Source of the DNA: Coriobacteriaceae bacterium
GTDB taxonomy: Bacteria > Actinomycetota > Coriobacteriia > Coriobacteriales > Coriobacteriaceae
Assembly (NCBI GenBank): GCA_030525945.1
Contig: JAUNDT010000001.1
Span: forward strand, 248,001 to 312,000
Reading direction: 5' to 3'
Length of the DNA: 64,000 nt
Shown here: piece by piece, positions 15,649 through 59,354 of the stretch
How positions within the stretch are numbered: position 1 is the first letter of the stretch
Layout: every line of letters begins with the position of its first letter
Translations under genes and position numbers: made by a program
The notes under the pieces: generated by a model
Told to the model about the DNA's origin: nothing
What the model saw: the letters and a program-made list of their open reading frames with translations, nothing else
Database searches by the model: none

Positions 15649-16956
15649 CTACTCGTCCCACGCCTCACGGCCGCGGAGCGCGCGCAGGCCGATGTCGCGG
15701 CGCAGCGTCTTGCCCTCAAAGTCAATCTTCTCGCAGGCAGCGTATGCCAAGTCGCGAGCAGCCTCGAACGTGGCGCCCAGAGCGGTGACGTCCAGCACGC
15801 GACCGCCGGAGGTAACGAGCTCGCCTGCCTCGTTCACGGCCGTGCCCGCGTGGTACACGGTCACGTTCTCCATGGCCTCGGCATCCTCGATGCCGGTGAT
15901 CACCTTGCCCTTCTCGTAGGAACCGGGGTAACCGGCGGAGGTGAGCACCACAGAGACCGCCCACTCGTCACGCCAGGCGAGCTCGACCTCGTCCAGGCGC
16001 TGCTCCGCGCAGGCAAGCATGACCTCGACCAGGTCGCTTGCCAAGCGGGGCATCAGCACCTCGGTCTCGGGGTCGCCAAAGCGCGCGTTGTATTCGATGA
16101 CCTTGGGGCCTTCCGGCGTGAGCATAAAACCGCCGTACAGGCAGCCGCGGAAGTCGATGCCCTCGCGCTGGCAGGCGGCAATAGTCTCCTCGAGAATGCG
16201 GCACATCGCGGCGTGCTCGTCCTCGGTCACGATCGGCACCGGGCTGTACACGCCCATGCCGCCCGTGTTGGGGCCCTTGTCACCCTCGAGGGCGCGCTTG
16301 TGATCCTGAGAGGTGGCCATCGGACGCACCGTCTTGCCGTCCGTGAAGGCGAGCAGCGTGCACTCGGGGCCGGTGAGCATCTCCTCAATAACAACCGTGC
16401 TGCCAGCGGCGCCGAACGCACCGTCAAAGCACTCATGCACGGCATTGAGGGCCTCGTCGAGCGTCAGGGCAACCACAACGCCCTTGCCCGCCGCCAAGCC
16501 GTCGGCCTTCACGACTACCGGAGCGCCCTGCTCGCGTACGTACGCAAGCGCGGACTCCTCGTCGGTGAAAGAGCCATAGGCGGCCGTGGGGATACCCGCG
16601 CGAGCCATGAGCTCCTTGGAGAAGCGCTTGGAGCCCTCGAGCTGAGCGCCCTGCGCGCCGGGGCCAAAGCACGGGATGCCGGCGTCGCGCACGGCGTCGG
16701 CAACGCCCGCAACCAGCGGAGCCTCCGGTCCGATCACCACAAGGCCGCATCCGGTCTCGCGAGCAAAATCCGCCACTGCAGCGAGGTCCTCGGCGTTCAG
16801 ATCAACGTTTTCACCCACGGCAAGCGTACCGCCGTTGCCCGGGGCGATGTACAGAGTGCCGCACAGCGGCGATTCCGCAAGTTTGGCGGCCAACGCATGC
16901 TCGCGTCCGCCGCTGCCGAGCAGCAGGATGTCGATGGTGTTCTCAAGTGCGCTCAT
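15649..16956 (-). CDS. purD: Phosphoribosylamine-glycine ligase
   Basis: 435 aa from ATG 16956, which follows a TTAGGAGG ribosome site. The N-terminus LLLGSGGREHALA, the central VVKADGLAAGKGVVV and the region PNTGGMG-YSP are GARS signatures, and the length is normal. It makes glycinamide ribonucleotide in purine synthesis using ATP. The next gene upstream is purA, another purine enzyme, but a structured 185-bp gap separates them, so the two need not be one transcript. Confidence 0.97.
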   Translation of the reverse strand: MSALENTIDILLLGSGGREHALAAKLAESPLCGTLYIAPGNGGTLAVGENVDLNAEDLAAVADFARETGCGLVVIGPEAPLVAGVADAVRDAGIPCFGPGAQGAQLEGSKRFSKELMARAGIPTAAYGSFTDEESALAYVREQGAPVVVKADGLAAGKGVVVALTLDEALNAVHECFDGAFGAAGSTVVIEEMLTGPECTLLAFTDGKTVRPMATSQDHKRALEGDKGPNTGGMGVYSPVPIVTEDEHAAMCRILEETIAACQREGIDFRGCLYGGFMLTPEGPKVIEYNARFGDPETEVLMPRLASDLVEVMLACAEQRLDEVELAWRDEWAVSVVLTSAGYPGSYEKGKVITGIEDAEAMENVTVYHAGTAVNEAGELVTSGGRVLDVTALGATFEAARDLAYAACEKIDFEGKTLRRDIGLRALRGREAWDE

Positions 16957-16974: not shown

Positions 16975-17002
16975 AAGCGGACCCAACGTGGGGCCCGCGC
17001 TT
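16975..17002 (-). promoter_or_regulatory. Terminator-like hairpin in the purD leader
   Basis: On the minus strand AAGCGCGGGCCC can pair with GGGTCCGCTT, followed by GCGTTTTT and directly by the AGGAGG ribosome site of purD. A weak promoter match (TTGAGA, 16 bp, TATATT at 17051-17024) lies upstream, which would place this hairpin in the leader as a possible attenuator. Otherwise it ends purA transcripts. Confidence 0.4.
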
Positions 17003-17040
17003 AATATCATGCATCCGCCCCGGAATATAAAATGTGAAGC

Positions 17041-17140
17041 GAGCTTCTCAAGTGCCGCAGATTGGGCTGAAAGAGGAGGGCGCACGCCTAACGTGCGGCG
17101 CCCGACGATTGAAGCCCAAGGTGCGGTGCTTGGGAAGTTC
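17041..17140 (+). ncRNA. Structured element, copy 1 (candidate RNA or structured-DNA family)
   Basis: 100 nt fill nearly the whole gap after purA. Read on the plus strand: a 12-bp outer stem, a 9x9 internal loop, a 7-bp stem TTGGGCT/AGCCCAA, a 9x9 loop GAAAGAGGA by GACGATTGA, and a 26-nt hairpin. Copy 2 at 56375-56473 has the same layout and an identical second loop but different stem sequences. On this strand all outer-stem mismatches become G-U pairs, and the second loop can form tandem G-A pairs at both ends. Whether it is transcribed is unknown. Confidence 0.6.
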
Positions 17141-17141
17141 G

Positions 17142-18428
<1,287 letters not shown>

Positions 18429-54307: not shown

Positions 54308-56332
<2,025 letters not shown>

Positions 56333-56334
56333 TG

Positions 56335-56360
56335 TTCCGCCGTTTTGGCAAACGGCGGAA
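56335..56360 (+). terminator. Hairpin after gyrB
   Basis: TTCCGCCGTTT pairs with AAACGGCGGAA around TGGC, three bases after the gyrB stop. No T-run follows, so termination may be partial and gyrA may be read through. Confidence 0.5.
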
Positions 56361-56374
56361 TGACTCGACGCTGC

Positions 56375-56473
56375 GCGGGCGCCAGGCACCTCGCCTTGCC
56401 GTTCAATCGTCGGTCGCGTACGTGAGTACGCTTCCCTCCTCTTTCACGGCAATCCAATGCACCTGGCACCCGC
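56375..56473 (-). ncRNA. Structured element, copy 2 (candidate RNA or structured-DNA family)
   Basis: 99 nt with the same plan as 17041-17140. Read on the minus strand: outer stem GCGGGTGCCAGG/CCTGGCGCCCGC, a 9x9 loop, stem TTGCCGT/ACGGCAA, a loop GAAAGAGGA by GACGATTGA identical to copy 1, and a terminal hairpin with GCGTAC/GTACGC. Both stems differ completely from copy 1 yet keep their length and pairing. It lies 110 bp upstream of gyrA in the opposite orientation. Expression is unknown. Confidence 0.6.
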
Positions 56474-56582: not shown

Positions 56583-59354
56583 GTGGCTGACGATATGAAT
56601 AACGACGAGCGCGAGCTCGAGGAGGGTTCCGAGGGGATGCCCGAGGACCTCAAGCGCCTGCTCGCCCGCGCCGAGGAGACCGAAGAGGGCGTGTACAACC
56701 CCGATGCGGACTCCGAGGACGAGGATGAGGATGACGACGAGGAGCTCGAGGAGAGCTTTGGCGCCAACACCCGCGGCGAGGACGCCGGCACGGATGTGAA
56801 CGGCGGCTCGCTGCAGATCAGCGAGTTCGGCAAGGAAATGAAGCAGTCCTTCATCGAGTACTCGATGTCGGTTATCACCGCCCGTGCGCTGCCGGATGTG
56901 CGCGACGGCCTCAAGCCGGTACACCGCCGCATCCTGTACGCCATGAACGAGTCGGGCATCTTCCCCAACCGCCCGCACAAGAAGTCCGCCTGGACGGTCG
57001 GCGAAGTTATCGGCAAGTACCACCCGCACGGTGACTCCGCGGTGTACGACACCATGGTTCGCCTGGCCCAGTGGTTCTCCATGCGCACCCCGCTCATCGA
57101 CGGCCACGGCAACTTCGGCAACATCGACGGCGACGGCGCCGCTGCTATGCGTTACACCGAGAGCCGCCTGGCCAAGCCAGCCATGGAGCTCCTGCGCGAC
57201 CTGCAAAAGGACACCGTGGACTGGCAGCCCAACTACGACGAGTCGCTCGCCGAGCCCACCGCGCTGCCCGCCCGCTTCCCCAACCTGCTGGTGAACGGCA
57301 GCCAGGGCATCGCCGTCGGCATGGCTACCAACATTGCCCCGCACAACCTCACCGAGGCCGTCGAGGCGACCTGCTACCTCATCGACCATCCCGACGCGAC
57401 GGTCGACGAGCTCATGCGGATCATGCCCGGACCGGACTTCCCCACCGGTGCGATCATCATGGGCACCGACGGCATCCGCCAGTCCTACGAGACCGGTCGC
57501 GGCTCCATCCACGTGCGCGCCAAGTCCCACGTGGAGACCACCAAGACCGGTCGCAGCCGCCTCGTGTTCACCGAGATTCCCTACATGGTGAACAAGGGCA
57601 CCCTGCAGGAGAAGATCGCGGCGCTCGTCAACGAGAAGCGCATCGAGGGCATCTCCGACATGCGCGACGAGTCGAACCAGAAGGGCCTGCGCCTCGTCAT
57701 CGAGCTCAAGAAGGGCGTTATCCCGCAGGTCGTGCTTAATAACCTCTACAAGTACACCTCTCTGCAGACCACGTTCGGCGCGAACAATCTCGCGCTGGTC
57801 AACGGCATTCCCAAGCGCCTGTCCCTGCGCGAGATGCTGCAGTACTACATCGACCACCAGGTCGACGTGGTGACCCGCCGCACGCGCTTCGATCTCAAGA
57901 AGGCCCAGGCACGCGCCCATATCCTCGAGGGCTATCTGATCGCGCTCGACCACATCGACGAGGTCATCTCCATCATCCGCGCGTCGCAGACGGACGCCGA
58001 GGCATCCGCCCGCCTGATCGAGCGCTTCGGCTTCACGCCGGAGCAGACCACGGCCATCCTCGAGATGAAGCTCCGCCGCCTGACCGGTTTGGAGCGCGAC
58101 AAGATCGAGGAAGAGCTGGACGGTCTGCGCCGCGCCATCGCCTACTACGAGGACCTGCTCGCGCACGAGGAGAAGATCCTGGGCGTCATCAAAGAGGAGA
58201 TGCGCGAGATCTCCCGCAAGTTCGGCGACAAGCGCCGCACTCAGATCACCCACGTTGAGAGGGACCTGGACGTCGAGGATCTCATCGCCGATGAGGACAT
58301 GGTCGTGACCATCACCCACACGGGATACGTCAAGCGCATCCCCGTTGCCGCCTACCGCGCGCAGAAGCGCGGCGGCAAGGGCGTTTCGGGGGTGAATCTC
58401 AAAGAGGACGATGTCATCGACGAGATGTTCATCGCGAGCACCCACGAGTACGTGCTGTTCTTCTCCACGCGCGGCAAGGTGTACCGCCTGAAGGTGCACG
58501 AGCTGCCGGAGGGCACGCGTCAGGCGCGCGGCACCGCGATTGTGAACCTGCTGCCCTTTGAGGAGGGCGAGAAGATCGCGTCGGTGATCTCGTGCCGCGA
58601 GTTTCCTGCAGACGAGTACCTGATGTTCGCCACCGCTTCCGGCATGGTGAAGAAGACCGCCATGTCGGCATACGGGCGTTCCCGCCGCGATGGCCTCATC
58701 GCCATCAACATCAAGCCCGGCGACCGCCTGCTGGGCGTGCGCCGCGTGAAGCCCGGTGACAAGGTCATCATGGCCACCACCGCCGGCAAGGCCATCATGT
58801 TCTGTGAGGACCAGGTCCGCGCCACGGGCCGCGATACGAGCGGCGTGCGCGGCATCACCATGAAGGGCGATGCCGAGGTGCTGGACATGGAAATCTCCAG
58901 CGGCGAGGGCGAGCTGTTCGTGATCACCGAGCGCGGCTACGGCAAGCGCACCTCGGTCGCCGACTATCCCGAGCAGAGCCGCGGCGGCCAGGGCGTTTAC
59001 ACGATCCAGATGACGGAGCGCAAGGGCGCGCTGGCGGCCATGAAGGTCGTTGAGCCGCAGCATGAGCTGTTCATCATCACCGAGGGAGCCACGGTCATTC
59101 GCGTGGAGACCTCCGAGATCTCCCAGTCCGGTCGCGCCACCCAAGGCGTCAAGATGATGAGCGTGGATGAGGGCGACCGTGTGTGCGCCGTGGCCCGTAT
59201 GACGAGCACCAAGAAGGACGCCGAGGCTTCGACGGACGCTGAGGGCGAGGCGATCGACCCGTCCGCTGACGACGACATGGAAGCCTCGGGCGATGAGGTT
59301 CGCGCCGATGCCGCTAACGGCGGCGAGACGCTGGAGGACGCGCTCGAGGAGTAG
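56583..59354 (+). CDS. gyrA: DNA gyrase subunit A
   Basis: The GTG at 56583 follows AAGGAGAA, giving 923 aa. An acidic N-terminal extension of about 75 residues precedes the usual start [20 protein letters not shown]. The quinolone region reads [17 protein letters not shown] near residue 149, with Ser and Asp at the common resistance positions. The catalytic Tyr is in AMRYTESRL. The C-terminal propeller has the GyrA box QKRGGKG, and the protein ends with an acidic tail. The extra acidic N- and C-termini are unusual. Confidence 0.98.

Follow-up and report, generated by a model that had tools for sequence, protein, structure and literature searches.

Which strand of the palindrome between gyrB and gyrA is the functional one, and does it act as a transcript? 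The palindrome occurs twice in the window, the whole stretch of 64,000 nucleotides of Coriobacteriaceae bacterium DNA that was analyzed (Table 1). The genome containing the window is 1.88 Mb long, is assembled in 23 contigs, and belongs to the genus that holds Collinsella. The named genomes matched by the core pattern of the element are also mostly Collinsella. According to the original prediction, the strand opposite to the flanking genes folds better than the gene strand, and the functional molecule may be transcribed against the genes. Rather than a proven antisense RNA, the element seems to represent a family of mobile hairpin repeats that has not been described before.

Table 1. Positions of the two element copies, their parts, and neighboring features in the window
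Feature	Position	Strand	Remarks
Element copy 1	56375–56473	−	between gyrB and gyrA; covariance model match of 88.1 bits
gyrB	54308–56332	+	flanks copy 1
gyrA	56583–59354	+	flanks copy 1
Copy 1 outer stem, 5′ arm GCGGGTGCCAGG	56462–56473	−	
Copy 1 outer stem, 3′ arm CCTGGCGCCCGC	56375–56386	−	arm nearest to the gyrB stop codon
Copy 1 core, 5′ side GAAAGAGGAG	56436–56445	−	three GA steps
Copy 1 core, 3′ side GACGATTGA	56403–56411	−	
Element copy 2	17041–17140	+	between purA and purD; covariance model match of 102.6 bits
purA	17142–18428	−	stop codon adjoined by copy 2
purD	15649–16956	−	flanks copy 2
Copy 2 outer stem, 5′ arm GAGCTTCTCAAG	17041–17052	+	
Copy 2 outer stem, 3′ arm CTTGGGAAGTTC	17129–17140	+	
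Copy 2 core, 5′ side GAAAGAGGAG	17069–17078	+	
Copy 2 core, 3′ side GACGATTGA	17104–17112	+	
Terminator-like hairpin and T-run	16977–16998	−	follows copy 2 in the direction of purA

Copies in the window and architecture of the hairpin

The folded strand of copy 1 is the minus strand, antisense to gyrB and gyrA, and that of copy 2 is the plus strand, antisense to purA and purD; the gene names were assigned by reading the translations. Copy 2 is probably located within the 3′ untranslated region of purA, because the terminator-like hairpin lies downstream of it. A separate perfect hairpin, TTCCGCCGTTT-TGGC-AAACGGCGGAA, is positioned between the stop codon of gyrB and copy 1 (window positions 56335–56360). 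It lacks a T-run and occupies the same place in genomes G028 and G030.

The folded strand is organized into a variable outer stem, stem P1, a purine loop, stem P2, the core, and a variable apical hairpin. P1 is formed of 12 bp and holds a conserved tandem wobble 5′-UG/GU. The two-by-two purine loop between P1 and P2 has the sequence GA/GG, which is mirrored as GG/GA in a second subtype. The 7 bp of P2 are followed by the core, composed of 5′-GAAAGAGGAG and 5′-GACGATTGA. With the two sides of the core set opposite each other, the sequence is GA·AA·GA·G·GA·G over AG·UU·AG·C·AG·C, and the two sides can form three tandem 5′-GA/AG modules, spaced by two and one Watson-Crick pairs. Judging from the sequence, the G·A pairs of the core may be sheared. 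Tandem sheared G-A pairs had been proposed for the two ends of the inner loop; they are plausible and the positions are conserved, but three modules are possible instead of two. The pair adjoining the core is always pyrimidine-purine (TA in 41 copies, CG in 19, CA in 11, and TG in 7). Conservation stops approximately 8–13 nt beyond the 86-nt covariance model; the element is about 100 bp long.

Compensatory changes were found in 19 of the 24 pairs in a first, unfitted alignment of 16 copies, from which the covariance model was built. In an alignment of 115 copies fitted to the covariance model, 22 of the 24 pairs have changes on both sides, and there are 498 double-changed cells, compared with about 150 after shuffling and a maximum of 114 with slid partners. 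This excess indicates that the pairing of the hairpin is beyond chance.

Some copies carry variant cores in the same outer frame: a fully paired helix in L035, and GAAAGCCGAGGG/CCCGAGGGCTTGA in genome G022, with a near relative in G034. The outer arms of copies L004, L035, and L036, and of those in G004, G022, and G034, are alike, and their inner cores differ (a fully paired helix, GGAGGCGCGGTGTAC..GTACATAAGCCTCC, or GAAAGCCGAGGG), which gives the impression of an exchangeable inner module. In L024 and L035 from the genome of the window, and in L298 from Dechloromonas, the arms run through the stop codon into the end of the gene, and the far arm mirrors the sequence of the host gene, for example GGTAAACCGG / CCGGTTTACC. 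The mirroring suggests a templated extension of the arms.

Strand asymmetry of folding

The outer stem of copy 1 has 12 of 12 standard pairs on the minus strand, including one U·G, and that of copy 2 has 12 of 12 on the plus strand, including two wobbles (G·U and U·G). All three wobbles turn into A-C in the gene direction. The description of the window stems as fully paired over 12 bp on one strand and interrupted only by A-C mismatches on the other is thus correct for both copies. It needs a qualification for the family: in 78 non-redundant copies, the modeled stems outside the two conserved tandem wobble pairs contain 30 G-U and 40 A-C on the folded strand. In the outermost 8 bp, G-U outnumber A-C by 51 to 21. 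Except in the outermost stem and the tandem wobble, the bias of G-U over A-C is therefore weak as proof of RNA. Mismatches lacking a strand preference, one part of the evidence named beforehand as contrary to the original prediction, are seen once the wobble pair, the G·A core, and the outermost stem are set aside.

The minimum free energy of the segment 56365–56485 is −67.3 kcal/mol for the strand opposite to the genes and −48.0 kcal/mol for the gene strand. The corresponding values for 17031–17150 are −74.2 and −51.5 kcal/mol, and none of the shuffles of the two copies reaches the native fold energy. The better folding of the strand singled out in the original prediction was confirmed for all 106 distinct copies, with a median difference of 8.9 kcal/mol. 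After the core had been replaced by Watson-Crick pairs, 92 of 104 copies still favored this strand (4.1 kcal/mol), as did 104 of 106 copies folded with DNA energy parameters (2.9 kcal/mol). These two sets of folds identify the purine core and the tandem wobble as the main source of the asymmetry. The strand asymmetry does not by itself indicate RNA.

Position and polarity relative to genes

In the genome of the window, 20 of the 24 copies are turned toward the stop codon of a gene on the opposite strand, according to a simple codon-model gene caller. For a count of orientations across genomes, the 115 aligned copies were combined into 62 locus clusters. Relative to the folded strand, the gene 3′ of the hairpin is antisense in 55 clusters and sense in four (binomial p = 1.7e-12); among clusters between co-directional genes the numbers are 41 and 3. 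The median distance from the edge of the stem to the opposing stop codon is 19 nt. The antisense polarity was also found in Enorma, Slackia, an Atopobiaceae genome, and a Coriobacteriaceae genome, as well as at hisF of Collinsella aerofaciens in the NCBI annotation. The opposition of the folded strand to its flanking genes, proposed for two loci, is a genus-wide rule that holds for 55 of 59 locus clusters.

Several copies are positioned inside operons or between a stop codon and an intrinsic terminator, as at purA, and the strand in the gene direction is therefore probably transcribed. The profile of the flanks of 91 copies, 150 nt on each side, contains no conserved promoter, terminator, or other motif beyond approximately 13 nt; only the bases of the stem (CGG / CCG) are conserved.

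Distribution of the element

The element was found in 15 places in the genome of the window by blastn and in 24 by the covariance model. Matches are present in 34 of the 58 genomes searched, including that of the window. Members of the genus contain from 0 to 35 copies; most Collinsella species carry the element and some have none. Most copies outside the genome of the window were gathered by the exact core pattern or as the best model matches, so degenerate copies are under-sampled. Paired copies, 100–130 nt apart in the same direction, are frequent. A phage collection contained no match, and the sole match in a plasmid collection is a 900-kb Collinsella record.

The spacer between gyrB and gyrA contains the element in about half of 30 species, always with the same polarity. 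Spacers without the element are as short as 9–11 nt (range 9–47 nt) or contain other sequence, and that of G016 has a deletion scar within the hairpin. Other repeats, which are variants of GACAAGATGGTGCCAGGTACAAACTTGTC and palindromes around GGTTGGGGACGGGTTCG, are present in the gyrB–gyrA spacers of six genomes: G008, G016, G022, and G034 (L230, L238, L236, and L237), and G013 and G017 (L218 and L225). The spacer thus collects several repeat families.

At 14 of 14 further sites of the window genome, the element is absent from the close relatives G015 and G005, a comparison that demonstrates presence and absence, not movement. Some of the spacers without the element, such as the pheS–pheT spacer of G015, consist of little more than a stop codon and a Shine-Dalgarno sequence. 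The spacers of G015 and G005 are too diverged for a target-site duplication or a precise empty site to be defined, and some of the absences could be losses. Collinsella is a common gut genus, and copies of the element separate genes of core operons (gyrB–gyrA and pheS–pheT) and differ by species. They may therefore tune core operons differently among species.

Relatives of the element in Proteobacteria

When GTDB genomes were scanned for the exact core, single loci beyond Coriobacteriia appeared in two genomes of Novosphingobium and in one each of Erythrobacter and Dechloromonas. These loci have long flanking inverted repeats and score 30–54 bits with the Collinsella model. In the order of Novosphingobium (246 genomes) and the class of Dechloromonas (321 genomes), the exact-core search returned only the known loci. 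Divergent copies, one to five per genome, were detected in the Novosphingobium, Erythrobacter, and Dechloromonas genomes using covariance model R2, which also found copies in 8 of 40 genomes, Erythrobacter included, from the order of Erythrobacter. The exact pattern also matched viral sequences (L070–L073) and Lihuaxuella (L130); these matches lack the flanking stem and were rejected as chance hits.

In Proteobacteria, the tandem-GA hairpin is one arm of a four-way-junction element of about 275 nt. The other three arms are a closing helix of about 33 bp, a mini-hairpin of 4 bp, and a second long hairpin. In an alignment of 16 sequences, 77 of the 98 predicted pairs covary. Long flanking arms are present in all 21 proteobacterial copies examined; in L318 these arms enclose the first two hairpins directly. 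In the proteobacterial core, the two Watson-Crick pairs covary, which reduces the common core to GAGGAG/CGACGA. The ratio of G-U to A-C differs by helix: 6:14 in the closing helix, 10:1 in P1, and 3:12 in the second hairpin. The arms of the closing helix in L295–L317 differ in sequence between copies and keep their complementarity. The ends of these copies mostly read YTAGAGC...GCTCTAR, in which TAG is often the stop codon of the upstream gene.

About 9 of the 21 proteobacterial copies are located 20–39 nt after a stop codon, most of them 32–33 nt, in the sense of the gene; the gene calls around the remaining copies are mixed and less sure. Since proteobacterial copies are often in the sense of the gene, the polarity relative to genes is lineage-specific.

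Comparison with known palindromic repeats

Intergenic palindromic repeats at the 3′ ends of genes are a known kind of element. REPs of the GTAG and CGTC superfamilies are typically less than 20 bp from the 3′ ends of open reading frames (Di Nocera et al. 2013, PMC3733652), and TnpA-REP recognizes the REP but not its complement (PMC8266576). The element resembles the REP and TnpA-REP/RAYT system in that dispersed palindromes lie mostly close behind the 3′ ends of open reading frames, between unidirectional or convergent genes, and may supply stop codons. A further likeness is that the hairpin of a REP is recognized on one strand only and mismatches in it matter. In contrast to REPs of 20–40 bp, the element is about 100 bp long with covarying arms, a conserved tandem-GA core, fixed antisense polarity, and no RAYT association. 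The 3′-end location of REPs was found, but not their size, the GTAG/CGTC tag (sought in the flanks of 91 copies), or a cognate RAYT flanked by the repeat.

ERIC, BIME, Correia/NEMIS, and the pneumococcal BOX, RUP, and SPRITE (PMC3049150) are, like the element, structured, co-transcribed intergenic repeats of about 100–200 bp, often behind genes, that do not encode proteins. ERIC acts in an orientation-dependent manner via a putative RNase E site, which is another likeness, and some BIMEs have an attenuating effect on the genes downstream of them (PMC3049150). Going by their descriptions, ERIC, BIME, NEMIS, and BOX have no known sequence relation to the element and differ from it: its arm sequence is not conserved, its hosts belong to other phyla, and its core is common to several phyla. 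The element is similar to a MITE in that it is non-coding, dispersed, bounded by inverted repeats, and present or absent between relatives. However, it has no conserved terminal inverted repeat shared with a transposase: the arms covary, and no partner was found among the Y1 transposases.

The element could be among the 250 palindromic intergenic candidates, most of them terminator-like, that Fremin and Bhatt (2021) reported from gut bacteria (PMC8040213). The one Collinsella candidate named in their text differs in lying upstream of L7/L12. Searches of Rfam returned only chance matches, mostly microRNA hairpins. They covered the Collinsella copy, with the gathering threshold and with E values up to 10, and three proteobacterial copies, with E values up to 10 or 5. 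Rfam and the openly accessible literature searched yielded no description of the tandem-GA core, of the near-strict antisense polarity, or of a core shared across phyla with a four-way-junction element. Palindromic repeats behind genes are common in themselves; the unusual feature is the combination of a 55 to 4 polarity to the stop codon with a near-invariant purine core that is paired on one strand only and is also present in Proteobacteria. The combination raises a testable question: which enzyme reads the tandem-GA hairpin and places it behind stop codons?

Nature of the element

We slightly favor the explanation that the element is a dispersed, non-coding, probably mobile palindromic repeat of the REP/ERIC/BOX kind, the folded single strand of which is recognized and inserted with fixed polarity. 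The multiple copies, patchy presence, covariation, fixed orientation, asymmetry with DNA parameters, lack of a conserved promoter, and placement between stop codon and terminator speak for this explanation; speaking against it are the variation of the outer arms between copies, which is unusual for transposon ends, the lack of a definable target-site duplication or empty site in the diverged spacers, and the RAYT (Y1) genes, which do not carry the element and are missing from several genomes that have it. A strand-specific mobilizing enzyme would recognize the folded single strand, most simply single-stranded DNA, and would insert copies with fixed polarity at the 3′ ends of genes. An inserted copy would then be co-transcribed in the gene direction as a 3′-untranslated or intercistronic hairpin, and effects on mRNA stability, termination, or readthrough may be by-products. 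The same core occurs under both transcription polarities in different phyla, and a determinant at the DNA level therefore fits better than one at the RNA level. Nevertheless, tandem G·A and the 5′-UG/GU wobble are equally at home in RNA, so DNA is not proven as the functional form. A broader proposal, which we regard as tentative and somewhat unlikely, is a cross-phylum class of structured selfish elements, with the tandem-GA hairpin alone in Coriobacteriia (about 100 bp) and inside the four-way-junction element of about 275 nt in alpha- and beta-Proteobacteria. A dedicated enzyme, possibly reading folded RNA or single-stranded DNA, would insert these elements behind stop codons with lineage-specific polarity.

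The strongest rival to the mobile repeat, although an unlikely one, is a role of the gene-direction RNA in the behavior of mRNA 3′ ends, in which a hairpin whose internal loop is rich in pyrimidines, right behind the stop codon, tunes 3′-end stability, Rho-type termination, or ribosome release. The location of copies a median of 19 nt from stop codons, inside operons or before intrinsic terminators, is consistent with such a role, and effects of this kind have been reported for some REP, BIME, and ERIC copies (PMC3733652, PMC3049150). However, all 106 distinct copies fold worse in the gene direction, where A-C replaces the conserved wobbles and the conserved core does not pair; the proteobacterial relatives often place the other strand in the mRNA, and closely related species have no copies. 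It is distinctly less probable that each copy is instead expressed as a structured RNA opposing the host genes, a trans-acting or antisense regulator. Strand asymmetry provides the entire support for this transcript: the strong family-wide polarity and better folding of that strand, the conservation of the G·A core and of the tandem wobble U·G/G·U, and the prevalence of G-U over A-C among the outermost stem pairs (51 vs 21). Against it, no conserved promoter motif is present within 150 nt, the folded strand continues directly into a gene 3′ end and lacks its own terminator, the rest of the modeled stems has no mismatch bias between strands (30 vs 40), and many proteobacterial copies have the opposite polarity. 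The proposal that the functional molecule is transcribed against the genes was therefore not borne out, given the absence of a flanking promoter or terminator, the probable transcription of the gene strand, the asymmetry of 104 of 106 copies under DNA parameters, and the proteobacterial relatives, which are often placed in sense. The location of the window copies, one upstream of gyrA and the other upstream of purD, would be accounted for by a leader riboswitch or a cis-regulatory motif of these genes; nevertheless, this explanation can practically be dismissed, because copies follow dozens of unrelated genes, adjoin the upstream stop codon in antisense, are missing before the same genes in relatives, and have no Rfam match. 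The original argument against a simple leader riboswitch is supported by this distribution of copies, which refutes the riboswitch as an explanation of the class.

A true REP mobilized by a RAYT (TnpA-REP) of the same genome is very unlikely, although the strand-specific palindromic hairpin near 3′ ends is similar to REPs (PMC3733652, PMC8266576). The gene content appeared promising: of 35 Collinsella genomes, 30 contain Y1 genes, and the element is scarce in the other five (0, 2, 0, 1, and 5 copies). However, the genome with five copies and no Y1 gene (G033) and three proteobacterial genomes that contain the element without a Y1 gene contradict the association, as do the length of about 100 bp compared with 20–40 bp and the lack of a conserved tag outside the stem. 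Furthermore, no element is near any of 20 Y1 genes, around which at least 2 kb were checked; the only two matches are approximately 8 kb away in the extended stretch. This absence, together with the different palindrome that flanks the RAYT gene of the window genome, rules out the association as far as it is testable. The RAYT-like gene encodes a Y1 transposase of 249 amino acids and is located at 1767–2516 on the minus strand, within L245:1725–2619 (G000:C2, approximately 99.2–100.1 kb). It is flanked by inverted copies of the palindrome AATGCGYCATTTAGGGTCNGACCCTAAATGRCGCATT, which is also present beside two copies of the studied element.
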